This document shows, piece by piece, positions 27,059 to 63,767 of a stretch of DNA of 64,000 bases (position 1 is the stretch's first letter; every line of letters begins with the position of its first letter). A program made the position numbers and the translations under genes. The DNA lies in assembly GCF_000982415.1 (NCBI RefSeq), contig NZ_LANI01000005.1, forward strand, positions 1 through 64,000, in the 5' to 3' direction. The stretch comes from Kiloniella litopenaei. GTDB taxonomy: Bacteria > Pseudomonadota > Alphaproteobacteria > Kiloniellales > Kiloniellaceae. The notes under the pieces were generated by a model, which ran no database searches, was not told where the DNA came from, and saw only the letters and a program-made list of their open reading frames with translations.

Positions 27059-27191
27059 CTCCACTTCAAGATTTAGATCTTATACCTCTCTTTCGTGAAG
27101 CAGGATTTTCATCCTCCCAGCAAAGAGTGAGATAGCGTCTGAATCTCTTTTTGCTCACAAATTGATACAAATTATACTGCTGGAGTTGCAG

Positions 27192-27770
27192 ATGAAAATA
27201 ACACTTACATACCCAAAAGTCTTGACCTCAACCTTAACTAGCTTTGCTTTATCCCTTGGCCTGATTTCCGCCTCGATTTCCACAGCAATGGCAAGCCCGG
27301 GCCACGGTAACACCGAATTGCCATCAATTGGTAAACAGGGTAAAGCCTCTCAGATAAGCCGGACAGTTGAGGTTAATCTAGAAGATAATTACTTTAGCCC
27401 CGAGACAATTTCGGTAACTAAGAATCAAACTGTGCGTTTTGTAATTAAAAACAGCGGAGAGTTTGTTCACGAGTTTAATATTGGCACCGCCGCCATGCAT
27501 GCCGGCCATCAGAAAGAAATGATGATGATGACCGAACATGGCATCTTAGAGGTGGATAAAATCAACCGGGACAAGATGATGATGATGGATATGGGGGATG
27601 GAGAAACTATGTCCCACGATGATCCAAACTCTGTATTACTGGAACCGGGCGAAACCGCTGAGATTATTTGGCAATTTCCCGAAGCTGCAGAACTGGAATT
27701 CGCCTGTAATGTCCCGGGACATTACGAGAGTGGCATGGTCGGTGAGATCAAGGTCGGAAAAGGCCAATAA
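27192..27770 (+). CDS. Cupredoxin (plastocyanin/azurin-like) copper protein
   Basis: After a signal peptide (about residues 1-35, ending STAMA-SPG) comes a type 1 copper domain (about 60-190). Likely ligands are His in SGEFVHEFNIG and the Cys, His and Met of FACNVPGHYESGM. Between the first His and the Cys is a Met/His-rich insertion (AAMHAGHQKEMMMMTEHGIL and a further MMMMDMGDGETMSHDD run) typical of periplasmic copper-resistance cupredoxins and probably an extra Cu(I) site. GGAG stands 7 bases before the ATG at 27192; the frame opens 10 codons earlier. It lies second in the copper operon. Confidence 0.93.
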   Translation: MKITLTYPKVLTSTLTSFALSLGLISASISTAMASPGHGNTELPSIGKQGKASQISRTVEVNLEDNYFSPETISVTKNQTVRFVIKNSGEFVHEFNIGTAAMHAGHQKEMMMMTEHGILEVDKINRDKMMMMDMGDGETMSHDDPNSVLLEPGETAEIIWQFPEAAELEFACNVPGHYESGMVGEIKVGKGQ

Positions 27771-27920
27771 ATACCCACCACATTTTCAAATCATCAAGAT
27801 TGGATATTGAGAGCAGATAAGGCTGTCATCCAATTAATATTGATATCAATCACATAGTTAAACCCGCAGGTACGATTGTTGTTTACCTGCGGGAAGACTG
27901 TCATGGGTAAGGAAAAATTT

Positions 27921-29717: not shown

Positions 29718-29720
29718 ATT

Positions 29721-30494
29721 ATGAAAAAACTTGGAAAAATAACTCTTGCCTCAAGCAAACGCTTTGTGCTGACTAGTCTTATCTTCTTTACCTTTTTGGG
29801 AGCTGGAGTACCTGCCACCTCACAAGAACTCAAGTATGATAATCTTGGAAAAGATCCTTATATCTATTATGGATTAAGCATTGAGCAGCTGGAAACCCGC
29901 ATCGGAGAAAGCGGCCATTCCCTTGTTTGGGATGGTGATGCCTTTGTAGGGACAGATGAAGCAAAGTTGCGCCTGCGATCAGCGGGGGAATATTCACTGG
30001 ACGAGAGTCTGTTGGAGAATTTGGAACATCAAGCTTTGGTCCAAACACCTGTATCAGACTTCTTTGATGCTAAAGCCGGTCTTCGCTACGACAGCCCTAA
30101 TGGCAAGAACAGAGGCTATGCCGTTGTTGGTTTTCAAGGTTTAGCCCCGCAATGGTTTGAGCTTGAGGGTGATCTGTTCCTCAGTGAGAAGGGTGATCTA
30201 TCTGCACGGTTGGAAGCAGACTATGAATTGCTTTTAACCAATCGTCTGATCCTGATACCAACTGCTGAAATTGATCTGGCCTTTTCTGATGATGAAGATA
30301 TAGGTATTGGAGCAGGTCTGAATTCTATCGAGACAGGTCTTCGCCTTAGCTATGATCTCGTAGATCGTACCATTGCACCTTATATTGGGGTCAACTACGA
30401 ACGTAGTTTTGGTCAAACTCGGGATTTTGCCAGAGAAGATGGTGAAGACACAGATCAAACGACCTTTGTTATGGGCGTTCGCTTGCTATTCTAA
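29721..30494 (+). CDS. copB: Copper resistance protein B
   Basis: This 257-residue outer-membrane protein of the CopB/PcoB family forms a beta-barrel that binds or passes copper. A signal peptide (about 1-36, ending ATS-QEL) leads directly to the barrel: YYGLSIEQLETRIGESGHSL, LVWDGDAFVGTDEAKLRLRS, DFFDAKAGLRYDSPNGKNRG, FELEGDLFLSEKGDLSARLE and a terminal aromatic VRLLF as expected for BAM insertion. Unlike many CopB proteins it has no Met-rich N-terminal region, presumably because CopA and the cupredoxin carry that load. It is the last gene of the copper operon. Confidence 0.94.
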   Translation: MKKLGKITLASSKRFVLTSLIFFTFLGAGVPATSQELKYDNLGKDPYIYYGLSIEQLETRIGESGHSLVWDGDAFVGTDEAKLRLRSAGEYSLDESLLENLEHQALVQTPVSDFFDAKAGLRYDSPNGKNRGYAVVGFQGLAPQWFELEGDLFLSEKGDLSARLEADYELLLTNRLILIPTAEIDLAFSDDEDIGIGAGLNSIETGLRLSYDLVDRTIAPYIGVNYERSFGQTRDFAREDGEDTDQTTFVMGVRLLF

Positions 30495-47718: not shown

Positions 47719-50436
47719 CTATTCATCATCAATAAGACTTTTTAAAACTTTTCCATCTTTGTTCAGCTCTTCAAAACGGCCGCTTTCAACAACTTTTCCA
47801 TTTTGCATTACAATGACATATTCGAAATGCTGCGACAAACTGGCTCTTTGCAATGTCCAACAAACACCTCGATTTTCCTGCGCTTCCATAATAGACGGAA
47901 CCAGCCTGTTTTGACTCTGTGAATCCATAACCGCTGCTGCTTCATTCAGGATCAATAAATCAGGTCGTTTGATCAGCGATCGCGCCAATGCCAGCTTTTG
48001 TCGCTGAACGCTGCTTAGACGGTTACCTGCAATACCAACATTAAATTCCAGGCCAACTTCAATAACTTCTGACCTTAGCCCCAAATCATCCAAAAGCTCT
48101 GTCATGACGCGCCCTATTGTTGCGCCAGCTTCCGCACGACCATAGGCCAAACGACCAAACAATATATTATCCTGAATACTAGCTGCTGAGTTATAATTGT
48201 CCGGATCATAAAACTCGACTGCGTCCGGGTCACGGCTTTCCAGTTTCTCTGCAAAAATCTTACGGGCCCTTAAGATTTTTGCCTCGACATCTTTGGTTAC
48301 AAGCCCAAGACGATGACGGGCCTCGACATAATCAAAAGGCAAATACATCAAAGCTTCCCGATCAGAATCAGATATATCGGCAAAGCTGCTTTTATCAGCT
48401 CTTTTCACTATTTTATCGAACTCGGGCAAATCATCTGCAGATATAAAACTAAACTGCTCAAAGAACTGATGAGACGGTGGCAATCCCATAAAAAGTTCAA
48501 CCATCGTACGGGCAATGGACAAACCCATATTATAAATACTGTCCCGCAGGTCTGCTTCTTCAACTGCCTCGCGCAAAACCGGCATCGCCAAAAGGTTATT
48601 TCCCGCATACTGCTTTTTACGGGGTGTTCCAAATAAAAGGTTTTCGCGCAAAGTCGCGTTATTATTGTATTTCTCGGGATCAAAAGCGATTACAAGATCT
48701 TCATCGCCTGTGGATTTAAGGTGCTCCTTTAACGCTATCCTTGCCCCAAGGATGCTTTCAGCAATGTCTGGTCGATTTTCACTATCAACGATGCCACTTA
48801 GTCCGAATAAATAAACATCTTCTTCAAAATCAACGGCACGCAATACCTCTGTAACCCGAGGCACCAATTCCGCCGGATCATTAATCCCCGCAGAAACAAA
48901 GTCGACCCATTCACCATCAGGGTTGAGCGCAATGTTTCCAGTCCGCAGGGCTTCTTGCTTTTCGCGTTGATATTCAGCCTCGGAATGAGAAAGCAGGGAT
49001 GAATCTTTGATCATCCAGTTCCGTAACCCATAAAAAAGGTTGTCCATAACCGACAAGGGAAATAGATAAGCCTCAGAACTAACATAGGAAATTCGACGTC
49101 CGGTTATGGCAGAAGGCAATTGAGCCATTGATTTGCCCCCTATCTTCATCGACCCCGAAGACGATTTAACCAAATTGGCAAGAAGCAACCCCAGATATTC
49201 CTTTCCACTGCTGGCGTTGCCAACAACGGCAATTTTCTTATCAACACCAACACTGAAAGTGATACCGTCTAGAAGTTTGTTCTCATTTTCATCAACCAGA
49301 CAAAGGTTGCTTGCAACAATATCCCCTTCCAGTGGCGGGCTATGCTTTTCTTCAAGTCGTTGCATTTCTGCATCGATCATACCATTTGGCTGGAACTGTT
49401 CAGCAACCTGCTCGTACTTGATTTGAACATCATTTCGTTGCTGATCCCAGTTAATGAGATCTTTGATCGGCGGGGGTAAATCCTTATAAGCTGCAAGAAC
49501 CGCCACAAGGGTACCGATTTCAAACTGTCCGGTTATTACCAAATATCCACCGCCAAGATAAAAGATAAAAGGTGTTATTTGCGCCAACAAGTTGTTCAGA
49601 AACTTAACAAAAAACTTTCTCTGATAAATTTCATATCGAATTTTGAAAATCTTGCCCAGCCGGCTTGATATCTCGGCACGCTCATAGTTGCTGGTATCAT
49701 GGGCCTGAATTTCAACGGCACCTTCGACCAATTCACTAACGCGACCAGCCAACGCCCGTGCTGTCATCTGCCGTTGGCGACCAAGGTCGAGAATACGTCG
49801 CCGCAGTTTGGGAATCAAAAAAGCCTGCACCAATACGATGCTCATGGCCACAATGCCCAACCACACGTTCTGGACCATAATAAAAATCAAGGCCGTTAAG
49901 GCTTGGCCGCCTAAAAAGACGGGGGTAACAATGGCATCACCGATAAAGCCGCCCAAAGGTTCGACTTCATCCTTAAGCATTGTTGCAATCTCTGCCTGCT
50001 TGACCCGTCGGCTGTGCATAACTGGAAACCGGAGAATACGATCAGTCAATTCAAACCGTAGCCTGCGGAGCATTCGCTCCCCTAGCTGACCTTTTAACGT
50101 ATTGATTACAAACTTGAATAGACCGTTGACAAGTACCAACCCCAAAAAGGAAAAACACAATGCAAACAGTAAAGAGATTTGTGTTAAATCAAACCCCTCA
50201 AACAACACCACCGGCTGACCAAAGATTGCTTCCCCAAAGGGAAGGTCAAACCGCATGAAAGACAAAGTTGAATTAATGTCAGAAAAATTTTGAGAGTCGA
50301 CAGCCCGGTTTATTATGCTTTTTGGTAAATCCAATGACAGAAAGTAAAAAGGCATTGAAGCAAGTACCAGGAACAAAATTTTAATCTGGTCTGCTTTACT
50401 GTGCTTCCAAATATACTTAAAAAGTCGTTGCTCCAT
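47719..50436 (-). CDS. ABC exporter-like protein with degenerate, expanded nucleotide-binding domain
   Basis: Residues 1-340 are a type I exporter membrane domain with about six helices. The nucleotide-binding domain (about 370-905) is about 290 residues too long. Every catalytic motif is altered: Walker A GNASSGKE (406-413, Glu for Ser/Thr), no Q-loop Gln (YVSSEAYLF), signature LSSVQ (807-811), Walker B LLILNEA with Asn831 for Asp, and Gln863 where the H-loop His belongs. The segment after the Q-loop is reiterated: VMDNLFYG (463-470), ATLRENLLFG (594-603) and ASIQDNILFG (752-761), the last two each at the end of a repeat of about 62 residues (542-603, 698-761). It is probably not an ordinary ATPase. 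Divergent from the glycosyltransferase cluster. Confidence 0.9.
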   Translation of the reverse strand: MEQRLFKYIWKHSKADQIKILFLVLASMPFYFLSLDLPKSIINRAVDSQNFSDINSTLSFMRFDLPFGEAIFGQPVVLFEGFDLTQISLLFALCFSFLGLVLVNGLFKFVINTLKGQLGERMLRRLRFELTDRILRFPVMHSRRVKQAEIATMLKDEVEPLGGFIGDAIVTPVFLGGQALTALIFIMVQNVWLGIVAMSIVLVQAFLIPKLRRRILDLGRQRQMTARALAGRVSELVEGAVEIQAHDTSNYERAEISSRLGKIFKIRYEIYQRKFFVKFLNNLLAQITPFIFYLGGGYLVITGQFEIGTLVAVLAAYKDLPPPIKDLINWDQQRNDVQIKYEQVAEQFQPNGMIDAEMQRLEEKHSPPLEGDIVASNLCLVDENENKLLDGITFSVGVDKKIAVVGNASSGKEYLGLLLANLVKSSSGSMKIGGKSMAQLPSAITGRRISYVSSEAYLFPLSVMDNLFYGLRNWMIKDSSLLSHSEAEYQREKQEALRTGNIALNPDGEWVDFVSAGINDPAELVPRVTEVLRAVDFEEDVYLFGLSGIVDSENRPDIAESILGARIALKEHLKSTGDEDLVIAFDPEKYNNNATLRENLLFGTPRKKQYAGNNLLAMPVLREAVEEADLRDSIYNMGLSIARTMVELFMGLPPSHQFFEQFSFISADDLPEFDKIVKRADKSSFADISDSDREALMYLPFDYVEARHRLGLVTKDVEAKILRARKIFAEKLESRDPDAVEFYDPDNYNSAASIQDNILFGRLAYGRAEAGATIGRVMTELLDDLGLRSEVIEVGLEFNVGIAGNRLSSVQRQKLALARSLIKRPDLLILNEAAAVMDSQSQNRLVPSIMEAQENRGVCWTLQRASLSQHFEYVIVMQNGKVVESGRFEELNKDGKVLKSLIDDE

Positions 50437-50798: not shown

Positions 50799-52109
50799 TT
50801 GGGTCTTGGGAATGAATTATGGCATAGTCCCGACATTATTGAGGGGAGCAAAACCATTACAAAAGACAGTAGACACATTGTTGACGATCAAAAAAGTACC
50901 CGTGTTCTGATTTACAGTCACGATAGCTTTGGTCTGGGGCATTTGCGACGCTGTCGGGAAATTGCCCATACACTGGTGGAAGAACATAAAAACCTATCAG
51001 TTTTAATTCTGTCTGGGTCACCAATCATTGGATCTTTCGGATTTAAGGCACGGGTGGATTTTGTCCGTATCCCTGGCGTAATCAAACTGAGAAATGGCGA
51101 TTACACCTCTCTCAATCTGCATATTGATATTGAACAAACTCTGAGCATCAGATCTTCTATTATCAAACACACAGCAGAGTTTTATGACCCCGACCTTTTC
51201 ATTGTGGATAAGGAGCCTTTGGGCCTAAGAGGTGAAGTGGAAGACACACTTCGCTTGCTGAAAAGTAGAGGCACCCCCTGTGTGCTCGGCCTCAGAGACG
51301 TCATGGATGATCCGGATCTGCTGTCAAATGAATGGGAACGTAAGAATACAGCCCCCGCTTTATCTGAATATTATGACGACATATGGGTCTATGGCCTTCC
51401 TCAAATATGTGATCCGTTGGATGGCATTGACCTGCCCCCGTCAGTCCAAAGAAAGATGACCTATACCGGATATCTGCGGCGAACCGGGGGCAACGATGTT
51501 CCCATGCCTGTTCTGGAAAAAATCGATGAAGAAACGCCCTATTTGCTTGTGACTGTCGGTGGGGGCGGTGATGGTGAAGAAATAATCGATTGGGTTCTCT
51601 CTGCCTATGAAAGTGACCCGGACCTGCCATATCCTGCGCTGATTGCTCTTGGTCCCTTTATGAACAGCGACCTTCAACACGATTTTCAAGTTCGCGCCAG
51701 CAAACTGCCAAATGTTGAAGCCATCACCTTTAATGCACAATTCGAGAGTCTGGTCGATAGAGCCATCGGTATTGTTGGTATGGGCGGATACAATACTTTC
51801 TGTGAAATTCTTTCCTACGATAAACGCGCTCTCATCGTACCTAGAACTGTTCCCAGAATGGAGCAATACATAAGGGCCAGTCGTGCACAGGAACTAGGCT
51901 TGGTGTGTATGCTCGAAAATGATGGCAAGCGCGACCCGCAAAAAATGGCAACTGCCTTGAGGAACTTACCTCAACAACATCTGCCATCCGATGTGGTTGT
52001 CCCCGGTTTGCTTGATGGTCAGAAAAATGTGATCAAACTTGCTGATAACTGCTTCAAGGCAAAGCTTTCAAAGCTCGGATTAATTGATAAGTTATCAAAT
52101 ACAAACTAA
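50799..52109 (+). CDS. MurG-like (GT-B) glycosyltransferase, COG4671 type
   Basis: The 436 residues form a GT-B fold. The N-terminal domain starts after about 30 residues with VLIYSHDSFGLGHLRRCREI, the glycine loop used for lipid or acceptor binding in MurG-like enzymes; the C-terminal domain has PYLLVTVGGGGDGEEI and the donor-site segment GIVGMGGYNTFCEILSYDKR. Donor and acceptor are unknown. No ATG is available; a TTG at 50799 is used as the only start after an in-frame stop, so the N-terminus is uncertain. It is the first of five glycosyltransferase genes and a distant paralogue of those at 54630 and 56502. Confidence 0.88.
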   Translation: MGLGNELWHSPDIIEGSKTITKDSRHIVDDQKSTRVLIYSHDSFGLGHLRRCREIAHTLVEEHKNLSVLILSGSPIIGSFGFKARVDFVRIPGVIKLRNGDYTSLNLHIDIEQTLSIRSSIIKHTAEFYDPDLFIVDKEPLGLRGEVEDTLRLLKSRGTPCVLGLRDVMDDPDLLSNEWERKNTAPALSEYYDDIWVYGLPQICDPLDGIDLPPSVQRKMTYTGYLRRTGGNDVPMPVLEKIDEETPYLLVTVGGGGDGEEIIDWVLSAYESDPDLPYPALIALGPFMNSDLQHDFQVRASKLPNVEAITFNAQFESLVDRAIGIVGMGGYNTFCEILSYDKRALIVPRTVPRMEQYIRASRAQELGLVCMLENDGKRDPQKMATALRNLPQQHLPSDVVVPGLLDGQKNVIKLADNCFKAKLSKLGLIDKLSNTN

Positions 52110-52190: not shown

Positions 52191-53414
52191 ATGAAAAAAA
52201 TAACCGTAATTCTTAAGGGGTATCCACGCCTTTCCGAAACTTTTATCGCACAGGAACTTCTTGCGCTGGAACAACGCGGCCTAGACCTTTCACTGGTCTC
52301 ACTGCGCCATCCAACGGATACATCCACACATCCCATTCATCAGGAAATCAAGGCGCCCGTCAGTTACCTGCCCGAGTATATCTATCAAGAACCTTTACGG
52401 GTTTTGAAAAGCTGGTGGAAAGCCCGGAAGATGGCAGGATATAAAAAGGCATTTTCTCTTTTCATCAAAGACCTGAAACGTGACCGAACGCCAAATAGAA
52501 TAAGGCGTTTTGCCCAAGCCTGTGTTCTCGCAGCTGAATTGCCAGAGGATGTTGATTGGCTCTACGCGCACTTTTTACACACTCCCTCTTCTGTCACACG
52601 CTATGCATCCTTTATGCGTGGAATTCCCTGGTGCGGATCGGCCCATGCCAAGGATATATGGACATCGCCAGAGTGGGAATTGAGAGAAAAGCTGGCCGAC
52701 ATTAAGTGGTTGGCAACCTGCACAAAATTTAACGTGGACTATTTAAGGGGCTTAACCCAAGACAAAGGCCGTGTAGACCTTGTCTACCACGGTCTTGATT
52801 TTGACCGTTTCGATAAAGCAGCGAACAGCCATTCACTGAATGACGGTAGTTCAGAAGATAAAAAAGTTACCCTGATTTCCGTAGGGCGGGCAGTTGCCAA
52901 AAAAGGCTATGACGATCTTTTGAAAGCCCTTTCCCATCTACCCCCAACTTTACATTGGCAATTTATTCATATCGGAGGGGGAACATTAAGCAAGAGCCTG
53001 AAAGATCAGGCTGAATCACTCGGCATTAGCCATAAAATCTTCTGGATGGGCGCTCAACCGCAAGAGGTCGTTCTGAAGCAATACCGAAAAGCAGATCTTT
53101 TTGTATTAGCGTCCAGAATCACCGAAGACGGGGATCGCGACGGCATGCCAAATGTGCTTATGGAAGCACAAAGTCAGGCTCTGGCCTGCCTTTCAACCGA
53201 TATATCTGCTATACCTGAGCTTATTGTTAACAATGAAACGGGTATATTGGTTTCACCAGAAAACCCGGATGCTTTAAGTGATGCCCTTAATAAGCTTATC
53301 AAGGATCCTGCGCTCAGGAAAAGGTTAGGGGAAGCTGGGGCAAAGCGTGTGAGAGGTGAATTTTCTATGAAACAAGGCATAGACCAGCTTTTTAATCGGT
53401 TCACAGCAACATAG
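52191..53414 (+). CDS. Glycosyltransferase family 4 (GT-B)
   Basis: A 407-residue cytoplasmic transferase: ITVILKGYPRLSETFIAQEL is typical of GT4 enzymes of exopolysaccharide and colanic-acid type (WcaL-like), AHFLHTPSSVTRYASFMRGI and SAHAKDIW form the acceptor domain, and the C-terminal nucleotide-sugar domain has LISVGRAVAKKGYDDLLKAL and the EX7E-type region RITEDGDRDGMPNVLMEAQS. It would transfer a sugar from a nucleotide donor to a growing glycan. It begins 81 bp after the first glycosyltransferase gene and ends 13 bp before the next. Confidence 0.93.
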   Translation: MKKITVILKGYPRLSETFIAQELLALEQRGLDLSLVSLRHPTDTSTHPIHQEIKAPVSYLPEYIYQEPLRVLKSWWKARKMAGYKKAFSLFIKDLKRDRTPNRIRRFAQACVLAAELPEDVDWLYAHFLHTPSSVTRYASFMRGIPWCGSAHAKDIWTSPEWELREKLADIKWLATCTKFNVDYLRGLTQDKGRVDLVYHGLDFDRFDKAANSHSLNDGSSEDKKVTLISVGRAVAKKGYDDLLKALSHLPPTLHWQFIHIGGGTLSKSLKDQAESLGISHKIFWMGAQPQEVVLKQYRKADLFVLASRITEDGDRDGMPNVLMEAQSQALACLSTDISAIPELIVNNETGILVSPENPDALSDALNKLIKDPALRKRLGEAGAKRVRGEFSMKQGIDQLFNRFTAT

Positions 53415-53427
53415 TCGGGCGATAGAA

Positions 53428-54633
53428 ATGCGGATTGCTTTTTACGCCCCCCTAAAATCCCCACATCACCCAACACCATCGGGCGATCGCCACGTTGCCA
53501 GATTAATTATTCAAGCTTTGGAAACACAGGGTCATGAGGTTGAGATCGCGTCTCATCTTCGAAGCAGGGATGCAAAAGGCGATAAAGAGCGCCAGATCAG
53601 AATGAAGAAGATTGGGGAAAAACTGGCCGCAAGATATATCAAGAAAATTCAAAACAAACCAGAGGACCAACGCCCAGATATCTGGATTACCTATCACCTC
53701 TATTACAAAGCACCCGACTGGATTGGCCCTCTTGTTTGTGAGGCCCTTAATATCCCCTATATTCCCATCGAAGCATCGATCGCCAACAAACGTGCAAATG
53801 GCCCTTGGGATCTAAGCCATCAAGCTGTCGTTGCCGCGGTTCATCAAGCCGATTGTATCATTAGCCTCAACCCCCATGACTCAAACTGTTTACCTAAAAG
53901 TATCAGAAACTGGACTTTGCCACCCTTTATTATCCCAGACCCCATTATAGAAAACCGGGAAAACTGGTCGCAGTGTCGTAAAATCATTGCAGAAAAATAC
54001 GGGCTGGACCCCCATAAGCAATGGTTGCTGGCAATTGCCATGATGCGCCCCGGGGACAAGCTGGAATCATACAAAGTGCTATCAAAAGCCTTGCGCGGCC
54101 TTCCAGACTTGTCCTGGCAGTTAATCATCGTTGGTGATGGACAGGCCAGACCCGATGTTGAAACGGCATTTGTCTGGGTACCTAATACAAAGATCACCTA
54201 TACGGGTCAGCTCGATTCAGACGAGCTGGCGACACTTATTCCGGCGTGTGATATCTATACCTGGCCCGCAGTTAATGAAGCCTATGGCCTCGCTTTTTTA
54301 GAAGCCCAAGCAGGGGGGCTACCAGTCATCGCAGGAAACACCGGGGGGGTTCCGGCTGTGGTTGCAGATGGTGAAACCGGCCTGTTAACAACACCCGGAG
54401 ATCCCGTGGCCTTTGCAGCAGCGCTGAGAAGTTTACTCACCGCGCCTGTTCGTCGCCGAGATATGGGAAAAGCCGCAGCAGAAAAAGTAGAAGCAATGCA
54501 TAGTCTGGTGACAGCTGGAAAGCGTTTGGATGCAATCCTTGCAACATCCAGAAAAAACTTTATTGAACCCGGCTTACCCCTGTTCGATTATGTCCAAAAA
54601 AATACCAATAAAAACAATACTTTATTATCATGA
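53428..54633 (+). CDS. Glycosyltransferase family 4 (GT-B)
   Basis: The product (401 residues) begins MRIAFYAPLKSPHHPTPSGD, has an acceptor domain with Arg/Lys-rich helices, and a donor domain with LLAIAMMRPGDKLESYKVLS and the EX7E motif region PAVNEAYGLAFLEAQAGGLP followed by NTGGVPAVVADGETGLL. That is a standard GT4 enzyme, with a preference for retaining chemistry known for the family; sugar and acceptor are unknown. Its stop overlaps the next start as ATGA, so translation is coupled within the cluster. Confidence 0.93.
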   Translation: MRIAFYAPLKSPHHPTPSGDRHVARLIIQALETQGHEVEIASHLRSRDAKGDKERQIRMKKIGEKLAARYIKKIQNKPEDQRPDIWITYHLYYKAPDWIGPLVCEALNIPYIPIEASIANKRANGPWDLSHQAVVAAVHQADCIISLNPHDSNCLPKSIRNWTLPPFIIPDPIIENRENWSQCRKIIAEKYGLDPHKQWLLAIAMMRPGDKLESYKVLSKALRGLPDLSWQLIIVGDGQARPDVETAFVWVPNTKITYTGQLDSDELATLIPACDIYTWPAVNEAYGLAFLEAQAGGLPVIAGNTGGVPAVVADGETGLLTTPGDPVAFAAALRSLLTAPVRRRDMGKAAAEKVEAMHSLVTAGKRLDAILATSRKNFIEPGLPLFDYVQKNTNKNNTLLS

Positions 54634-55850
54634 CATCTGACACTCAAAACCCAGAAATCAAGAGATCAGAAGAACGCATTGATGTTCTTTTTTATGTTCA
54701 ACATCTTCTCGGTATCGGGCATCAAAAACGAGCAGCGACTCTCACCCGAGCTATGAATAAAGCCGGTCTTTCAGTTGCTTTTGTTTCCGGTGGGATGAAC
54801 GTTCCCGGACTCGATACCGGTAGTGCAGAATTTTATCAACTCGATCCCGTTCGTGCTGATGGTATCCTGTTTACAGAATTACTGGATAAAAACGATCAGC
54901 CCATTGATAAAACCTTCAAGGCCAAACGCGCACAAGATCTTGTCGATATCTATCACGCAACAAAACCACGGCTTGTACTGTTGGAAATGTTTCCCTTTGG
55001 CCGTCGGCAAATGCGCTTTGAACTAATTCCCTTGCTTGAGGCCGCGAAAGCATCAGAATTTTCCAGTAAAATCGTCTCATCCGTTCGGGATATCTTGGTC
55101 AAGGCCCCCAAACCGGAACGCCTTACCGAAATGCTTGCCTGGGTAGATACTCATTTCGATCATGTCCTTATCCACGGTGATCAAAACCTGATTCCCTTTG
55201 ATAAAACCTTTCATCCTGCCCGGGATATCGCTGATAAAATTCTCTATAGCGGCTACGTCATTGATGAAAAGGTTGATGCGACACCTCACCCGACAGATGG
55301 TATTGACGAAGTCCTTGTTTCAACCGGCGGCGGTGCTGTCAGCGAACGTCTGATCGACGCAGCCTTGAGCGCGAGAAAACAAAGTATTTTGAAAGAAAAA
55401 CTTTGGCGCATACTTATTGGCCATAGCCTACCGGAAAAATTATTTGAAAAGTACAAAGCACAGTCAGATGATAACTTGATTGTTGAGCGTTCAAGACCGG
55501 ATTTCACATCTCTTTTGGCTAACTGCGCCCTATCCATAAGTCAGGGCGGCTACAACACGGTTATGGAGGTTCTACGCGCCGGATGTCCTCGTGTCATCGT
55601 CCCCTATTCCGGTGGCCTGGAAACAGAACAAACCCTCAGGGCCAAGCTGTTATCTGAACAAAACGCCCTTACCTGTGTAGATGAAGAAACACTGACAGGT
55701 GAGAAGCTTGCTACAGCCATGGAGAAAACATTACAAAAGAAACAAAAGCCGCCATCCAGCCTTAATACAAATGGCGCTGAAAACACAGCGACAATCCTCG
55801 CAAACATTCTGAATGATAACCCCCTGCAACAGTTTTTGAAAAATGGCTGA
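54630..55850 (+). CDS. MurG-like (GT-B) glycosyltransferase
   Basis: The 406 residues read DVLFYVQHLLGIGHQKRAAT at the N-terminal glycine loop, LEMFPFGRRQMRFELIPLLE in the middle, and VLVSTGGGAVSERLIDAALS and LSISQGGYNTVMEVLRAGCP for the donor site. It is closely similar along its whole length to the gene at 56502 (same VQHLLGIGH, FPFGRRQMRFEL and GYNTVME blocks), so the two arose by duplication with the histidine phosphatase between them. The acceptor may be a lipid-linked saccharide by analogy with MurG. Overlaps its neighbours by 4 and 8 bases. Confidence 0.9.
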   Translation: MTSDTQNPEIKRSEERIDVLFYVQHLLGIGHQKRAATLTRAMNKAGLSVAFVSGGMNVPGLDTGSAEFYQLDPVRADGILFTELLDKNDQPIDKTFKAKRAQDLVDIYHATKPRLVLLEMFPFGRRQMRFELIPLLEAAKASEFSSKIVSSVRDILVKAPKPERLTEMLAWVDTHFDHVLIHGDQNLIPFDKTFHPARDIADKILYSGYVIDEKVDATPHPTDGIDEVLVSTGGGAVSERLIDAALSARKQSILKEKLWRILIGHSLPEKLFEKYKAQSDDNLIVERSRPDFTSLLANCALSISQGGYNTVMEVLRAGCPRVIVPYSGGLETEQTLRAKLLSEQNALTCVDEETLTGEKLATAMEKTLQKKQKPPSSLNTNGAENTATILANILNDNPLQQFLKNG

Positions 55851-56505
55851 ACTCTTGATCTTCAGGCATGGGCCAACCATTTGGAATGCTGAAAAAAGAA
55901 TACAGGGAAGGTCTGATATTTCCCTTTCTGAACAAGGCATCGAAACAGTTCAAAAATGGCAGCTTCCAGACGAATGGATGGCTGTACCCTGGTATGTCAG
56001 CCCTCTGCAACGTGCTCAGGAAACAGCCAAACTTCTGGGCCAAGAAAAGCTCGAAACCGATCCCTTGCTGATTGAAATGTCCTGGGGAAAGTGGGAAGGA
56101 CAAAGGTTACCTGAATTAAGGAAAAAATTGGGACCAGAAATGGAAAAGATGGAGGCCCTTGGACTTGATCTTTGCCCCCCTGGTGGCGAAAGTCCGAGAG
56201 ATGTCCAAAACCGCCTGAAACCATTTTTATACAAGGTCGCCGGATCGAACCAGTCAGCGGTCGCCGTGGCACACAAAGGTGTTCTAAGAGCCCTTTATGC
56301 CGAGGCAACAAACTGGGATATGCTCGGCAAACCAAAAGAAAAAATCAGAGATAACTGCGCCCACCTTTTTCAGATTTCCTCAACGGGTATAATCAGTGTA
56401 AAAGCAATGAATATCAGTTTATTGTCATCCATTGATTTTTTTCCAAGACCAATAAAACAATCAGAGCATCCCCCATCAGACTTCCCCAAAGAAAATCGCT
56501 CATGA
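55843..56505 (+). CDS. Histidine phosphatase family protein
   Basis: A 220-residue phosphoglycerate-mutase-like phosphatase with catalytic residues in place: LIFRHGPTIWN (Arg8, phospho-acceptor His9), SPLQRAQETA (Arg57), EMSWGKWEG (proton donor Glu78) and AVAHKGVLRA (His144). Relatives dephosphorylate sugar phosphates, cobalamin precursors (CobC) or nucleotides. Lying between two duplicated glycosyltransferase genes with 8-bp and 4-bp overlaps, it most likely removes a phosphate from a sugar or lipid intermediate of the same pathway (inference). Confidence 0.92.
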   Translation: MAELLIFRHGPTIWNAEKRIQGRSDISLSEQGIETVQKWQLPDEWMAVPWYVSPLQRAQETAKLLGQEKLETDPLLIEMSWGKWEGQRLPELRKKLGPEMEKMEALGLDLCPPGGESPRDVQNRLKPFLYKVAGSNQSAVAVAHKGVLRALYAEATNWDMLGKPKEKIRDNCAHLFQISSTGIISVKAMNISLLSSIDFFPRPIKQSEHPPSDFPKENRS

Positions 56506-57707
56506 GTATCCACAAAAATACGGGTAATGTTTTTATCTATGTGCAGCACCTTCTGGGGATTGGACACCTGAGACGTGCTTCTTTACTTGCCAAAGCCATG
56601 GACAACGCAGGAATGTCTGTTGTCTTTGCCTCTGGGGGGCGCCCCGTGTCCTATCTTGATATCGGAAATGCGCAACTTTTCCAGCTCCCTGCCCTGCATG
56701 CTGCCGATAACAGCTTCAAAGTTCTAAAGGATATTGAAGGATCAATCGTCAATGATGAGTGGAAAAAACAGCGAAAAGAGCTGCTTTTATCAGCTTTTCG
56801 CGAGGCCCGGCCAGATGTCCTCCTGATTGAGATGTTTCCCTTTGGCAGGCGCCAGATGCGTTTCGAACTGGACCCCTTAATTACTTTGGCCAAATCGATG
56901 AATATTCCCGTCGTCAGTTCTATCCGGGATATTCTCACAACCCATAAAACCCCGGGCAAAAGTGAATGGATCATTGATCGGGTTCAAAAAGACATTGATC
57001 ATGTTCTAGTTCATGGCGATCCGGATTTTATCCCTCTTGAGGACAGCTTTCCCCTTGCCGAAAAAATAAAAGATAAAATCGTCTATACCGGCTACGTTGT
57101 TGAAAACAATACAGAACATAGAAGCCGGAACTTAGAAAAAAAACGAAGAGGTGTGCTCGTCTCTGCAGGCGGCGGTGCCGTTGCCCTGCCCTTGGCTGAA
57201 GCAGTCATAACAGCCAAAAACCTTTCCTCTTTGAACGATGTACCCTGGCGATTGCTTTTGGGAAACAATCTGCCTGATGAGGAATTTAATAAAGTTCTTA
57301 AAAGTGCGTCCGATGGGTTAATTGTTGAACGAAACCGCCCGGACTTTTGCACGCTTCTGGCCGCAAGCCAGCTTTCGATCAGCCAGGCCGGATACAATAC
57401 CGTTATGGAAACCCTTATGACCGGAACACCCGCGATTGTCGTTCCCTTTTCGGCAGATGGTCAAAGCGAACAAACGGATCGTGCACAAAAACTGGCGCAA
57501 GCAGGCGTGCTATCACTGCTATCAGAAGCAGACCTAACCCCGGAAAATCTGGCAAAGACTATTGACCATGCCGTCGAAAAGGCGTCATTGAAGAACCTGG
57601 AGTCAGAAATAACAGTCGATGTTCACGGCACAGACAAAACAACGTTATTTATCAAAAACCTAATTGAAAAGAGACACAAAAAGAGAGACACACAGTGCCC
57701 CAGATAA
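56502..57707 (+). CDS. MurG-like (GT-B) glycosyltransferase, paralogue
   Basis: The 401-residue enzyme shows FIYVQHLLGIGHLRRASLLA, LIEMFPFGRRQMRFELDPLI, VLVSAGGGAVALPLAEAVIT and LSISQAGYNTVMETLMTGTP, the same order of blocks as the product of 54630-55850. Two related enzymes side by side suggest addition of the same or similar sugars at successive positions. The start overlaps the phosphatase stop (ATGA) and the end overlaps the following membrane-protein gene by 13 bases. Confidence 0.9.
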   Translation: MSIHKNTGNVFIYVQHLLGIGHLRRASLLAKAMDNAGMSVVFASGGRPVSYLDIGNAQLFQLPALHAADNSFKVLKDIEGSIVNDEWKKQRKELLLSAFREARPDVLLIEMFPFGRRQMRFELDPLITLAKSMNIPVVSSIRDILTTHKTPGKSEWIIDRVQKDIDHVLVHGDPDFIPLEDSFPLAEKIKDKIVYTGYVVENNTEHRSRNLEKKRRGVLVSAGGGAVALPLAEAVITAKNLSSLNDVPWRLLLGNNLPDEEFNKVLKSASDGLIVERNRPDFCTLLAASQLSISQAGYNTVMETLMTGTPAIVVPFSADGQSEQTDRAQKLAQAGVLSLLSEADLTPENLAKTIDHAVEKASLKNLESEITVDVHGTDKTTLFIKNLIEKRHKKRDTQCPR

Positions 57708-58301: not shown

Positions 58302-60218
58302 GTGGACGATCTGTTACAGGTCAAAGACCTCCGTGTCGCATTTAAGCTTCCAGAAGGCACTTTGAACGCCGTCAAAGGCGTATCCTTTCGTATTCCAAGG
58401 GGAAAAACAGTTTCTCTGGTCGGTGAATCAGGATCGGGTAAATCCGTTGTCAGTCAGGCAATCATGGGAATCTTACCCAAAGTAGCTGAAATTGCAGGCG
58501 GAGAGATTCTCTTTTCCGACCCGGAAAAACAGGGTGAAATCCTGAATCTGGCAAGGATCAAACCTGATAGTAAACAAATGAGACAAATCCGCGGTGGTCG
58601 CATCTCTATGGTTTTTCAGGAGCCCATGACCTCGCTTTCGCCAGTACACACCGTTGGTAACCAGATCTGCGAAGCTTTGGAACTACATCGGGATATTACC
58701 TCGGCTCAAGCACTGGAACTTGCAACCGACATGTTACGTATGGTCGGGTTCCCCGACCCAGCCCGCGCAATGCGTACCTATCCCTTTGAACTTTCAGGTG
58801 GTTTGCGTCAGCGCGCCGTCATTGCCATGGCACTGGTATGCCACCCCGTCCTACTGATTGCCGACGAACCCACCACAGCGTTGGACGTCACCATTCAGGC
58901 ACAAATTCTGAAGCTTATCAAAGATTTGCAGAGCGAGCTGGATATGTCCGTTCTGATGATCACCCACGACCTTGGCGTTGTTGCCAATATGGCCGATGAA
59001 GTCGTGGTCATGTACCACGGCGAGGTAATGGAAAGCGGTACGCTGGAGGATATTTTCAGAAAAGCCGAACACCCCTACCTCAAGGCCTTGCTTCACGCGG
59101 TTCCTCGTTTTGATATGAAGCCGGATGAACGGCTCAAGCCAATTCGTGAAATTGAACACCACCCTGATAATCCTATTCTCAAGGCAAAGAGACAAAGACG
59201 AAAAATCTGCAAAGATGATCCCCCTTTGCTTGAGGTAAATAACATCTCAAAAGCCTTTTCTATCAGAAAAGGAGGGTTTTTCTCTCAAAAATCAGAAGAG
59301 AAAGTACTCGCCGTCGACGATATCAGCTTTTTTGTCAATCGTGGGGAATGCCTCGGTTTGGTCGGGGAAAGTGGGTGCGGGAAAACCACCCTGTCAAAGA
59401 TCATTATGCGTGCTCTAAAGCCCGATCAGGGGTCAATTATTTTCCGCGATCAGGATAATAATCCGACAGATGTTTTAGCCCTGGAGAAAAAAGAGCTCTT
59501 TAAGTTTCGTGAACGTGTTCAGTTCATGTTCCAGGATCCTTATAGTTCGCTCAACCCCCGCATGACTGTGCAGGAACTAATTGGAGAACCCCTGCTCATC
59601 CATGGCATGAAAAATCCTAAAGAGCGACGAAAGTACGTTGAAAGCCTAATGGACGTGGTTGGATTGGCACCAATGCATATAAATCGCTATCCACATTCAT
59701 TTTCAGGGGGGCAGCGTCAACGGATCGGGATTGCCAGGGCACTGGCCCTACAACCCGACCTTTTGATCTGTGACGAGCCTGTTTCAGCCTTGGATGTCTC
59801 TATTCAGGCACAGGTTCTTAACCTGTTGAAAGATTTAAAAGCAGCTTTGGGTCTGACCTATATTTTCATCAGTCACAATCTGGCAGTTATCGATTACATT
59901 GCTGATCGGATTATCGTCATGTGCAGGGGACGATTGGTTGAAACTGCCCCCAAGGAATTACTCTTTAAAAATCCTGTTCATCCCTATACCCGGGCATTGG
60001 TATCTGCAGTACCTGATCCCGATCTCGACCATCCACTCGATTTAAAGGATTTATTGGAGGGCAAAGCTTCTGTGCCCGAAAACTGGCCAGCGCCTTTTAC
60101 TGTAAATGAGCAACACGAGATGGCCATGGTTGATTTGGGTGGTGGACATTATGTACGCGTCCATAAAGGCACTGAGAGTGATGCCATCCCTCAAGCAGAT
60201 ATGAGGGAGAACGCGTAA
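58302..60218 (+). CDS. Peptide-type ABC transporter ATP-binding protein with two NBDs (YejF-like)
   Basis: The 638 residues hold two complete nucleotide-binding domains of the oligopeptide/nickel class. Domain 1: GESGSGKS, LSGGLRQRAVIAMAL, LLIADEPTTALD. Domain 2 (from about residue 305): GESGCGKT, FSGGQRQRIGIARAL, LLICDEPVSALD. All catalytic residues are normal, in contrast to the ABC protein at 47719. It should energise the two permeases that follow, with which it overlaps by one base. The start is GTG. No substrate-binding protein gene is in the operon. Confidence 0.95.
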   Translation: MDDLLQVKDLRVAFKLPEGTLNAVKGVSFRIPRGKTVSLVGESGSGKSVVSQAIMGILPKVAEIAGGEILFSDPEKQGEILNLARIKPDSKQMRQIRGGRISMVFQEPMTSLSPVHTVGNQICEALELHRDITSAQALELATDMLRMVGFPDPARAMRTYPFELSGGLRQRAVIAMALVCHPVLLIADEPTTALDVTIQAQILKLIKDLQSELDMSVLMITHDLGVVANMADEVVVMYHGEVMESGTLEDIFRKAEHPYLKALLHAVPRFDMKPDERLKPIREIEHHPDNPILKAKRQRRKICKDDPPLLEVNNISKAFSIRKGGFFSQKSEEKVLAVDDISFFVNRGECLGLVGESGCGKTTLSKIIMRALKPDQGSIIFRDQDNNPTDVLALEKKELFKFRERVQFMFQDPYSSLNPRMTVQELIGEPLLIHGMKNPKERRKYVESLMDVVGLAPMHINRYPHSFSGGQRQRIGIARALALQPDLLICDEPVSALDVSIQAQVLNLLKDLKAALGLTYIFISHNLAVIDYIADRIIVMCRGRLVETAPKELLFKNPVHPYTRALVSAVPDPDLDHPLDLKDLLEGKASVPENWPAPFTVNEQHEMAMVDLGGGHYVRVHKGTESDAIPQADMRENA

Positions 60219-61216
60219 TGTTGACCTATATCGTGAATCGTATTTTGGCCATGGTGCCAACACTACTTATCATTTCAGCAGTTATCTTCACATTGATTCA
60301 GTTGCCGCCCGGCGACTATCTGGAAACACAGATTGCCGAAATGCAGGCACAGGGTGAAAACGTCGATCAGGAAAAAATCGATTATCTCCGCACCGAATAC
60401 GGTTTGGACAAACCCATGTACGAACAATATTTCGATTGGGTTTTTGGGCTTTTACAAGGTGATCTTGGCTATTCATTCGAACATGAATTACCTGTAACCG
60501 AAGTTATTGGTGATCGGATCACCTTAACCATTGTGCTCGCCCTTGCTGCAACGCTCTTTACCTACGTTCTTTCCTTCCCCATAGGTATCTATACCGCTGT
60601 AAAGCAATACTCTGTCGGTGATTATGTTTTCAGCTTTGTCGGGTTTATCGGCCTTGCAACACCTAACTTTTTGCTGGCTTTGGTTTTGTTATATTTTGCC
60701 AATGTCTGGTTCGGTACATCTATTGGCGGCCTGATGGATGATCAATTTATCGGCAAGCCCTGGAGTGTAGATAAAGCGCTGTCCGTCTTGGAACATCTAT
60801 GGGTTCCCGTTGTCGTAATTGGAACTTCCGGTACCGCAGGTATGATCAGACGGCTACGCGCGAATATGCTGGATGAACTATCCAAACAGTACGTCATTAC
60901 TGCCAAAGCCAAGGGCCAAACGCCCCTCAAAATCCTTTTGAAATATCCACTTCGTTTGGCAATAAACCCTTTTATAGCAGATATTGGATCTATTCTGCCT
61001 GACTTACTTTCCGGGTCTGTCTTGGTCGCGGTGGTCATGGGATTGGAAACAACCGGCCCAATGCTGGTCGATTCACTCTTGAGCCAGGATATGTATCTCG
61101 CGGGGTCATTTCTTATCATCGAAGCATCGCTTGTTGTTATCGGGGTTTTCCTTTCAGATCTTATTCTTGCCGCAATTGACCCCAGAATTCGTCTGGGCGG
61201 GGGAGCTGAAAAATGA
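60218..61216 (+). CDS. Peptide-type ABC transporter permease (DppB/YejB family)
   Basis: A 332-residue inner-membrane permease: the N-terminal VNRILAMVPTLLIISAVIFT signature, VDQEKIDYLRTEYGLDKPMY, six membrane segments, and the EAA loop GTAGMIRRLRANMLDELSKQ, YVITAKAKGQTPLKILLKYP that docks on the ATPase. This is the B-type partner of a heterodimeric oligopeptide importer. It starts on the last base of the ATPase gene and ends overlapping the second permease by 4 bases. Confidence 0.95.
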   Translation: MLTYIVNRILAMVPTLLIISAVIFTLIQLPPGDYLETQIAEMQAQGENVDQEKIDYLRTEYGLDKPMYEQYFDWVFGLLQGDLGYSFEHELPVTEVIGDRITLTIVLALAATLFTYVLSFPIGIYTAVKQYSVGDYVFSFVGFIGLATPNFLLALVLLYFANVWFGTSIGGLMDDQFIGKPWSVDKALSVLEHLWVPVVVIGTSGTAGMIRRLRANMLDELSKQYVITAKAKGQTPLKILLKYPLRLAINPFIADIGSILPDLLSGSVLVAVVMGLETTGPMLVDSLLSQDMYLAGSFLIIEASLVVIGVFLSDLILAAIDPRIRLGGGAEK

Positions 61217-62400
61217 GCAAAAACACAACAGATCATCAGCCCCAAAATCGGCCAATGGAACACTACGTCAATCCAGCCCCTTTTGATCCCCAATCGGTCA
61301 CAAAACTGACGCCACAGCAAGAACGCTATTTCACGGCATCGCAATGGCAGATCATGTGGTGGAAGTTCAAAAAACACAAATTGGCGGTTTATTCCGGGGT
61401 TATACTGCTTTGTATGTATGTGGTTGCCATTCTAGCAGAGCTGGTCGCCCCCTATAATTTACATAACAGGGAAACAAAATTTATCTATGCCCCGCCGCAG
61501 GCCATTCACTTTTTCCATGAAGGCGAGTTTATAGGGCCCTTTGTCTATGGCTTTGACTACAACCTCAATATGGAAAACCTGAAACGTGAATATACCCCGA
61601 ATACATCTGATATTCAGAAGTTAAACTTCTTTTGCCGAAGTGATCAGGAGTATGAGTATCTTGGTCTAATCAGCGGAGATTTTCATTTCGTCTGTCCGGC
61701 AGAGAATGGAACGCTTTTCATCTGGGGAACTGATCGTTTAGGACGAGATGTTTTTAGTCGGATTATCTATGGGTCAAGAATTTCTCTAACCATTGGGCTG
61801 ATCGGTGTTGCCATCAGCTTTGTGCTTGGCACCTTCTTTGGTGGTTTGGCCGGATATTTTGGTGGTCTGGTCGATAATTTTGTGCTGCGAGCCATTGAAA
61901 TACTCAAATCCTTCCCGAGCCTGCCATTATTCATGACTCTTTCCGCTCTTTTACCTGTCACTTGGAGTCCTTTGGGCGTTTTCTTTGGCATATCTATCAT
62001 TCAGGGTTTTCTGGATTGGCCGGGTCTAGCCCGCGCGGTCAGGTCAAAATTGTTGAGCCTACGCGAAGAGGATTTCACCACAGCAGCGCAGTTGATGGGC
62101 GCTTCACATGCAAGAATTATTGGCAAACACCTTTTACCATCTTTCAGCAGCCATCTTATTGCCTCTGCAACCCTGGCCATTCCCATGATGATACTGGGTG
62201 AAACCAGCTTGTCTTTCCTTGGTCTTGGTCTAAGAGCACCCATCACATCTTGGGGCGTATTGCTAAACGAAGCGCAAAATATTAGTGCTGTTGTTCTATA
62301 TCCATGGCTGCTGTTACCCGTACAGCCTGTGGTATTGGTCGTACTCTGTTATAATTTCTTGGGTGACGGACTGCGTGATGCAGCAGATCCCTATAAGTAA
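61213..62400 (+). CDS. Peptide-type ABC transporter permease (OppC/YejE family)
   Basis: The 395-residue C-type permease has an OppC_N helix (KHKLAVYSGVILLCMYVVAI), a large periplasmic insert (about 85-165) as in YejE, then the transport domain with GTDRLGRDVFSRIIYGSRIS and the EAA loop LREEDFTTAAQLMGASHARI, IGKHLLPSF. Together with the preceding permease and ATPase it forms a complete membrane complex for peptides or similar compounds. The large N-terminal insert is the reason to compare it with YejE, whose system takes up peptides and microcin C in E. coli. A terminator follows directly. Confidence 0.94.
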   Translation: MSKNTTDHQPQNRPMEHYVNPAPFDPQSVTKLTPQQERYFTASQWQIMWWKFKKHKLAVYSGVILLCMYVVAILAELVAPYNLHNRETKFIYAPPQAIHFFHEGEFIGPFVYGFDYNLNMENLKREYTPNTSDIQKLNFFCRSDQEYEYLGLISGDFHFVCPAENGTLFIWGTDRLGRDVFSRIIYGSRISLTIGLIGVAISFVLGTFFGGLAGYFGGLVDNFVLRAIEILKSFPSLPLFMTLSALLPVTWSPLGVFFGISIIQGFLDWPGLARAVRSKLLSLREEDFTTAAQLMGASHARIIGKHLLPSFSSHLIASATLAIPMMILGETSLSFLGLGLRAPITSWGVLLNEAQNISAVVLYPWLLLPVQPVVLVVLCYNFLGDGLRDAADPYK

Positions 62401-62405
62401 CTTTT

Positions 62406-62439
62406 AGTGTGGTGAGAAATGATTATTGCTCACCACACT
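62406..62439. terminator. Bidirectional terminator between the ABC operon and the cyclase gene
   Basis: AGTGTGGTGAG and CTCACCACACT pair perfectly (11 bp) around a 12-base loop. CTTTT on one side and the cyclase stop codon on the other show it serves both converging genes. Confidence 0.75.
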
Positions 62440-63767
62440 TAGTTCGCGATAACCACCAGATCCATTGCTTCGGTAACACCCATAACCTGACTTTTCTCCA
62501 GTACCTTTGGCTCTAATAAAGGCTGATATCCTTGTTCAAGTGCTCTCTGATAGGTCGTGTGGTCTGAAATAGCGCGTGCACCAACGTCTTTATTGTGCTT
62601 TTCAAGCTTTGCAGACAAGTTCACAGCGTCACCAATTACCGTATATTCCAAACGTGTATCATCACCCACAGCCCCAAAGAGAACGGGTCCAACCGCTATT
62701 GATCCATTTACCAACGGGGCTTCTTCACCGTTATCTCTTTGCCATGCCGCTGTTACATTCATCAACTCGTCCATGGCTCTTAAAGCGTCGGCCGCATAGG
62801 TTTCCGAAGGAACAGAAGCACCAAAGGTTGCCATAATACCATCGCCCATAAACTTATCGATTGATCCGCCATGCTTTTGGATAATCGGAACACAAAGCTG
62901 CTGATATTCAGCCAAAGTGCCCATGACAACCTCGGCAGATTCAACCGCTGCTAACTTTGTAAAGCCTCGCATATCCAAATTCATAATCGCAGCTTCGCGT
63001 CTTTCAGCACTTCCCACCATTATTTTATCTTTTGAATGGGCAATCTTTTTCGCAACTTCCGGGGAAAAGAAACGGGAAAGTTCTTGGGCAGCCTGTCGTT
63101 CAGAAACGGAATTGATCAACAAGGCCCGGGCACGCACAAGGGCAACAGCCAAAATAAGCGTTACAACCAGAATAGAGATTATCTTATCAAACTCTGCACC
63201 CAGAAGAATGGAATTTGACGTCATGTAATGCACATAATCACGCGTTATCATGCTGTCCATGGAATCCACAGAGACAACGTACATAATCATTATGCCCCAC
63301 CCCAAGGCCGCGAATAATCCAGCAATAACAACGAACTTTGCTTCAAACCGTAAGGCCCTGATGGCTATAAAAATAAATACATAAAGAAGTGTCGGCACTT
63401 TCAAATAAAAACTTGGGGGTTGATTGTACTGAATATGAAAGCTCCAGATCAGAACCATCAAAAGCGTCATATCAAACAATGCTGAAACGGCGAGCGACCA
63501 GTCAGGTAGATGAAAATTATAAGCCCAAACAATCCGAATGAGTGTCAAAACCAGATAAATGCTCAAGGCCCAGGGAACAGGAGCAAAGGTCACATCTTCG
63601 TTAAAGGTTTTAGGTGAAATCAGATAAAGGGACCCAAAAATAGAAACGACCCCCAGCTGAATCCAGCCAATCAATCGTTCTGTTTTATCTTCTTGCTCAT
63701 GAATGGCTTTCAAGACCCGCTCTGGCAGAGCTGTTTCATTGACCGGGCTAAACCATTTCATATTCAT
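62439..63767 (-). CDS. Membrane class III adenylate/guanylate cyclase
   Basis: The 442 residues contain a hydrophobic N-terminal half with about six membrane segments (roughly 35-225) and a C-terminal class III cyclase domain (about 255-435). Both metal-binding Asp are present (NLDMRGFTKLA near 267 and KFMGDGIMATFG near 310). The specificity Lys of IDKFMGDG favours ATP, so cAMP is the likely product. The transition-state position, usually Arg in N-x3-R, reads NLSAK here. It lies at the end of the region that includes a cyclic-nucleotide-binding protein (47187-47651), a possible receiver. Confidence 0.93.
   Translation of the reverse strand: MNMKWFSPVNETALPERVLKAIHEQEDKTERLIGWIQLGVVSIFGSLYLISPKTFNEDVTFAPVPWALSIYLVLTLIRIVWAYNFHLPDWSLAVSALFDMTLLMVLIWSFHIQYNQPPSFYLKVPTLLYVFIFIAIRALRFEAKFVVIAGLFAALGWGIMIMYVVSVDSMDSMITRDYVHYMTSNSILLGAEFDKIISILVVTLILAVALVRARALLINSVSERQAAQELSRFFSPEVAKKIAHSKDKIMVGSAERREAAIMNLDMRGFTKLAAVESAEVVMGTLAEYQQLCVPIIQKHGGSIDKFMGDGIMATFGASVPSETYAADALRAMDELMNVTAAWQRDNGEEAPLVNGSIAVGPVLFGAVGDDTRLEYTVIGDAVNLSAKLEKHNKDVGARAISDHTTYQRALEQGYQPLLEPKVLEKSQVMGVTEAMDLVVIAN

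Follow-up and report, generated by a model that had tools for sequence, protein, structure and literature searches.

The described systems closest to the locus treated here are of a few kinds. Type IV (B-family) ATP-binding cassette (ABC) exporters such as MsbA, TM287/288, ComA and PCAT1 combine a transmembrane domain (TMD) with a complete nucleotide-binding domain (NBD) fold. CFTR and the sulfonylurea receptors (SUR), eukaryotic full-length ABCC proteins, have turned from pump to gated channel or regulator, with CFTR still binding ATP and hydrolysing it at one site (PMC7756269). An ABC exporter is joined to a cyclic-nucleotide-binding (CNB) domain in exporters of the NHLP type and in HetC of Nostoc, where the domain is required in vivo (PMC10986499), and MsbA2 of Sinorhizobium meliloti (SMb21191) is an ABC exporter adjoining glycosyltransferases that serves a polysaccharide of undefined identity (PMC3687685 and PMC12239276). 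Here we consider a 905-residue protein encoded by an open reading frame at 47719-50436, minus strand, of a window of 64,000 nucleotides from Kiloniella litopenaei (contig NZ_LANI01000005.1, positions 1 to 64,000, forward strand), together with its family, whose members carry the database label "ABC transporter ATP-binding protein". The protein has the TMD and complete NBD fold of the type IV exporters, but it lacks their intact set of A-loop, Walker A and B, signature, Q-loop and H-loop, its NBD carries an insert of 290 residues, and a CNB protein is its partner; we call it a pseudo-ABC exporter. The components are of known kinds (ABC exporters, HetC-like CNB-linked exporters, CFTR/SUR), and their combination appears new within the literature searched, in which, with partial coverage, no description was found of a bacterial exporter family with family-wide loss of the ATP site and a near-constant CNB partner.

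From the models, the ABC exporter fold appears to be intact and the catalytic chemistry not. The AlphaFold2 model of the whole protein, built with 65 homologues, has a mean pLDDT of 84.1 and a pTM of 0.78, and its VIA comparison gives type IV exporter matches with Z 28.5-30.9 across the 50 matches listed (for TM287/288, Z 29.9 over 428 residues). The NBD model superimposes on the ComA NBD over 239 of 239 residues (VIA Z 30.9, root-mean-square deviation 1.8 A), and the NBD profile matches type IV exporters over 240 columns with an E of 1.2e-38 in a single comparison. The ATP site of this fold was read from an alignment with six canonical exporters that this genome also encodes, all six of which carry K, S/T, Q, G, G, D, E, D and H at the nine columns compared, as well as the A-loop Tyr. 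The original prediction, made from the letters alone, had described a Walker A ending in Glu, a Walker B Asp changed to Asn, a signature reading LSSVQ, and replacement of the Q-loop Gln and the H-loop His; every one of these substitutions is borne out by the alignment (Table 1), which shows a further loss beyond them, that of the A-loop Tyr, replaced by Asp 382. Its broader statement that all catalytic motifs of the NBD are lost went too far, for the motifs are altered, but the protein still has Walker A Lys 412, Walker B Glu 832 and D-loop Asp 838.

Eight catalytic residues (Walker A Lys and Ser/Thr, the Q-loop Gln, the two signature Gly, Walker B Asp and Glu, and the H-loop His) were scored over 184 distinct members, that is, 183 distinct locus proteins and the window protein. 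Not one of the 184 has the complete set, the best being a single member with six, and 35 members have none. Residue by residue, the Walker A Lys is retained in 106, Ser/Thr in 12, Gln in 49, the first and second signature Gly in 19 and 15, Walker B Asp in 26, Glu in 86 and His in 33, and the D-loop Asp persists in 172; an aromatic residue in the A-loop is found in none. Homologues with intact motifs, which the prediction had named as grounds for giving it up, are thus found for individual residues and never for the full set, and its view that the NBD has ceased to be an ordinary ATPase is supported at the level of sequence. The catalytic sites change 8 to 22 times each on the tree, so that loss is recurrent, and this repeated coming and going is what would be expected once the residues cease to matter. 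In working ABC proteins the A-loop aromatic stacks on the adenine and the Walker A Ser/Thr is the Mg ligand that holds Mg-ATP; with acids prevailing at both positions, the pocket reads as if ATP were excluded.

The 290 or so extra residues that had been predicted are confirmed. The insert lies between Q-loop and signature in all 184 members, at 263-362 residues, and the same columns hold 26 residues in the six canonical exporters. The repeats within it, predicted as 62-residue units at 542-603 and 698-761, are real, but they are longer than that: 538-690 aligns with 698-812 as a tandem duplication over 108 columns (probability 98.5%, E 2.6e-14, single comparison). Likeness in sequence between the repeats and the canonical Q-loop segment is weak (about 21-31 residues, probability 27-40%), and it is structural comparison that backs the idea of a duplicated Q-loop segment. 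Modelled alone, the insert has a mean pLDDT of 89.7, and nine of its nine best VIA matches are ABC exporter chains, at a Z of 3.6-5.3 that lies under the tool's noise guide; at rank 2 stands MsbA, matched over 417-491, its Q-loop-to-signature part. These matches are below the noise guide yet consistent in identity and place, and on this model-based ground we read the insert as an additional copy of the NBD's own helical segment. Otherwise its fold is without a clear relative, there being no Pfam family, no PDB match with Foldseek at E <= 0.001 and nothing in VIA at Z >= 8, and such absence is weak evidence.

The gene for the CNB protein stands directly downstream of the pseudo-ABC gene, on the same strand and 67 bases away, and its product has both the cNMP_binding fold and the Glu and Arg of the phosphate-binding cassette; among 188 relatives, the cassette is kept at Gly83 in 100%, Glu84 in 95%, Arg93 in 100%, Thr94 in 93% and Ala95 in 97%. 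That this neighbour belongs with the pseudo-ABC, as originally predicted, is well supported. Over the 196 family loci, in which some genomes are counted twice because both collections hold them, a CNB relative is adjacent on the same strand in 179 and fused to the C terminus in 9, giving 188 in total, and by distinct locus proteins it is next door or fused for 177 of 183. Four of the six proteins without a neighbouring CNB (genomes G262, G196, G238 and G126) have one on another contig, beside the glycosyltransferase gene GTa described below. The fused domain was confirmed by Pfam in 6 of 6 proteins tested, plus that of Azospirillum thermophilum; fusion is confined to one clade and requires one change on the tree (support 99), and since the tree warns of long branches meeting, a single fusion event is provisional. 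One genome, G193, holds three diverged fused copies (L077, L078 and L079). Co-inheritance was scored in a sample of 289 genomes of the class, the basis of the family's genome count and of the co-occurrence counts here, with two-by-two tables shaped by E cut-offs of 1e-60, 1e-25 and 1e-60: pseudo-ABC and CNB are both found in 92, pseudo-ABC only in 5, CNB only in 4, and neither in 188. Three of the five pseudo-ABC-only genomes (G062, G193 and G256) have fused, divergent CNB domains that were scored as CNB-absent.

Similar co-inheritance is found for GTa, which is single-copy at the cut-off used: both genes occur in 91 of the genomes, pseudo-ABC only in 6, GTa only in 1, and neither in 191. GTa lies within 5 kb of the pseudo-ABC in 65 of the 91 and is distant or on another contig in the other 26; hence, linkage alone cannot explain the co-occurrence. 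The sole GTa-only genome (G065, 86% complete) has a CNB gene beside GTa. Neighbour counts, for which the 111 loci longer than 11 kb were used, place a GTa relative in 82 loci, and further glycosyltransferases follow in the window (Table 1); gene-caller clustering of the flanks was too crude in GC-rich loci and was left out of these counts. The arrangement seen in the window is found again on pSymB of S. meliloti 1021, where two Opp-type permeases (62% identity) accompany GTa, GT4, GTb, pseudo-ABC and CNB, and it is present also on pRL11 of Rhizobium johnstonii 3841. PADLOC matches were at domain level only.

Table 1. Features of the pseudo-ABC gene and its neighbours, in window coordinates (loci: the 111 longer than 11 kb)
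Feature	Coordinates	Strand	Remarks
Pseudo-ABC exporter, 905 aa	47722..50436	-	Stop 47719-47721; Pfam ABC_membrane and ABC_tran above cut-off
TMD, residues 1-360	49357..50436	-	Homologue alignment
NBD core part 1, residues 361-471 (A-loop, Walker A, Q-loop)	49024..49356	-	
A-loop position, Tyr to Asp 382	49291..49293	-	Aromatic in 0/184 members, Asp/Glu in 174
Walker A GNASSGKE, residues 406-413, Ser/Thr to Glu	49198..49221	-	Glu/Asp in 150/184 members
Q-loop YVSSEAYLF, residues 451-459, Gln to Ser 454	49060..49086	-	Alignment with controls
NBD insert, residues 472-761, 290 residues	48154..49023	-	Between Q-loop and signature
Repeat copy 1, residues 538-657, with RENLLFG	48466..48825	-	Profile-profile comparison
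Repeat copy 2, residues 704-812, with QDNILFG, extending into signature	48001..48327	-	Profile-profile comparison
NBD core part 2, residues 762-905 (signature, Walker B, D-loop, H-loop)	47722..48153	-	
Signature LSSVQ, residues 807-811, both Gly lost	48004..48018	-	Alignment with controls
Walker B LLILNE, residues 827-832, Asp to Asn 831, Glu 832 kept	47941..47958	-	
H-loop position, Gln 863	47848..47850	-	Alignment with controls
Stand-alone CNB domain protein, 154 aa	47187..47651	-	Pfam cNMP_binding E 2.9e-18
GTa, GT28/MurG-like glycosyltransferase, divergent from pseudo-ABC	50799..52109	+	Single copy per genome, co-inherited
GT4 glycosyltransferase	52191..53414	+	Relative in 80/111 loci
GT4-type glycosyltransferase	53428..54633	+	Relative in 74/111 loci
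GTb, GT28-like glycosyltransferase	54630..55850	+	
GTb second copy, GT28-like glycosyltransferase	56502..57707	+	

Other genes around the module may be mentioned in their own right. Opp/Yej-type ABC transporter genes occupy 58302-62400 of the window, with permeases 62% identical to those neighbouring the Sinorhizobium module; genes of this type are also near the module in Rhizobium and Azospirillum, and they are possibly a further member of it. A class III nucleotidyl cyclase is encoded at 62439-63767 (minus strand), about 15 kb from the CNB gene, and in Mesorhizobium the corresponding region encodes two cyclases along with a DUF3095 protein. In a Mesorhizobium locus, a gene for an MBL-fold hydrolase (L237, 11204-12058) directly follows the CNB gene, with relatives in 12 of the 111 loci; the protein has a sub-threshold match to a cyclic-nucleotide phosphodiesterase family, which is a hint only. 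The capsule genes SMb20804/05 of S. meliloti 1021 (PMC5539429) and pRL110056 of R. leguminosarum, which encodes an O-antigen enzyme needed for root colonisation (PMC11103875), may sit in or near the module, but we claim no such placement for either. MsbA2, considered as a characterised member, was rejected: the S. meliloti 1021 copy of the family is at pSymB 841,723-844,408, the msbA2 operon is near 938 kb, and the closest match to the family near that operon is a 600-residue frame with an E of only 5e-8.

The family is present in 97 of the 289 genomes, about a third of the alphaproteobacteria sampled. The named loci are the best 80 of 534, and among these 80 some come from records that are, by title only, betaproteobacterial; the insert as query matched 260 plasmid records, mainly of Rhizobium (144) and Sinorhizobium (80). 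Purifying selection is strong in all four regions of the protein, insert included, with regional dN/dS values of 0.010-0.055 in comparisons with the three nearest copies, all from Kiloniella (L021-L023), a range drawn from finite-dS comparisons only, with dS near saturation and infinite-dS rows giving no ratio. In S. meliloti 1021 the gene (NC_003078, 841723-844408) is split over two frames, and it is open in strain RCAM1750, so the split is either a strain difference or a sequencing error. The TMD of the family also occurs by itself, in proteins of about 400 residues that have no NBD (L239, 5040-6281, minus strand; L240, 5001-6200, plus strand; and G653, contig C8, 100746-101651), which suggest that the family TMD may function without any NBD. 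The first two adjoin a multicopper oxidase and a CopB-like gene; elsewhere in the window, at 27162-30494, what is probably a cluster for copper resistance can be read from the translations, with genes for a cupredoxin-like protein, a multicopper oxidase and a CopB-like protein.

The reading we lean towards, with a confidence a little above even, is that of an ATP-independent, ABC-derived membrane protein of type IV (MsbA-like) architecture, controlled by the CNB protein within a surface-glycan module. The family would have given up ATP as fuel while keeping the NBD and TMD fold. The CNB subunit would dock on the dead NBDs, a placement backed by its fusion at the NBD end in one clade, and, once bound to its ligand, it would drive the movement of NBD and TMD in place of ATP as trigger. 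That movement would open or close an ATP-independent flippase or channel, whose cargo would most likely be an anionic surface glycan, or a lipid-linked precursor, that the glycosyltransferases produce. An anionic substrate is suggested by the transmembrane (TM) helices, five of the six having basic residues (K39, K108, K210/R212, K274/K278 and K318/K325) whose conservation exceeds 90% over 65 rows. Homodimerisation, the CNB ligand and the substrate are all things that we infer. In its most specific form, which we put forward tentatively and at a good deal less than even confidence, CNB with bound cyclic nucleotide would replace ATP as the driver of the NBDs in an ATP-free, ligand-gated flippase or channel for glycan precursors that is widespread in Alphaproteobacteria, the NBD having been rebuilt by a copy of its own helical segment into an ATP-excluding docking platform.

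Several points weigh against this proposal. The window protein, like many other members, retains Walker A Lys, Walker B Glu and D-loop Asp, and Lys, Ser/Thr, Asp and Glu are jointly kept in 2 of 184, so that some weak ATP binding may persist. The Fisher tests on the co-occurrence of CNB and GTa disregard phylogeny, and what the linkage to glycosyltransferases establishes is a common pathway, without identifying a substrate. As for the ligand, the CNB domain of HetC binds ppGpp, and cAMP gave no protection (PMC10986499). Class III cyclases, considered as general neighbours, were rejected: apart from the window and Mesorhizobium, where they lie close by, they are no regular feature, with W_AC-like sequence in 13 of the 111 loci and PF00211 searched in 36 genomes, where proximity was judged among the strong matches listed. 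Finally, no homologue of known function was identified. HetC has its CNB domain at the N terminus, a C39 peptidase and an essential ATPase residue, and it differs in this from the present family, with its degenerate NBD and a CNB that stands apart or at the C terminus; the window protein has sub-threshold matches to TIGR03896 and TIGR03796, and no C39 peptidase domain was matched by Pfam in it or in the fused members tested.

The strongest competitor is a membrane receptor or scaffold that transports nothing and, like the sulfonylurea receptors, senses a ligand via the TMD or the CNB and exerts control over the glycosyltransferases linked to it or over a different transporter. Such a role fits almost as well as a flippase or channel: the dead NBD, the CNB partner and the co-inheritance of glycosyltransferases accommodate it equally, and a conserved Opp-type transporter adjoins in several lineages. 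Neither CFTR nor SUR is known to have a CNB subunit. What makes a receptor or scaffold rather unlikely in our estimate is that the conserved basic residues of the TM helices and the TMD, which is strongly conserved in the homologue alignment, suggest a kept pathway, though ligand binding could explain them.

The same retained residues that trouble an ATP-free flippase or channel would serve a residual ATP sensor, in which the NBD, through the Lys of Walker A and the Glu of Walker B, binds ATP without hydrolysis, with modulation by the CNB; Lys, Glu and the D-loop Asp are, by the counts given above, frequent in the family. Yet the A-loop aromatic is absent throughout and an acid takes its place in nearly all members, and the Walker A Lys is itself lost in 78, among them Rhizobium copies with Ala, so we regard the sensor as improbable. 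Also improbable, and marginally more doubtful, is a degenerate half of a heterodimer in which an intact ABC half-exporter supplies one working site, as in TM287/288. Non-canonical nucleotide-site residues are common to the pseudo-ABC and such halves, degenerate sites being well known in heterodimeric exporters (PMC7756269), and other ABC exporters are encoded in the genome. The scarcity of a second exporter half nearby speaks against this model, and against the pairing with another ATPase that the prediction had offered: among distinct loci longer than 11 kb, only 1 of 102 has a second exporter-type TMD within about 5 kb, a count that concerns partners linked to the locus. The degeneration is also much wider than in such halves. 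In the heterodimeric exporters known to us, degeneration affects a single composite site and spares the other, and we know of no exporter half that has both an acid in the A-loop and a large insert. Finally, the lost catalytic residues and the split S. meliloti 1021 copy might suggest a decaying pseudogene, which for the window gene is ruled out by the dN/dS values and for the family has a negligible chance, with the frame open in nearly all genomes and purifying selection in four regions, insert included.

ABC exporters are usually taken as ATP machines, and here a conserved family has lost the ATP site as a set. A fixed partner of the second-messenger-sensor type and an acid at the adenine-stacking position set it apart. 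Its co-inheritance with CNB and glycosyltransferase suggests that it exports a surface sugar, or regulates, with a signalling molecule in place of fuel as the switch. If the CNB moves the NBDs, whether NBD closure requires a fuel or a ligand would become testable without ATP. A gene module of symbionts such as Rhizobium and Sinorhizobium is also placed on a likely surface-glycan pathway.

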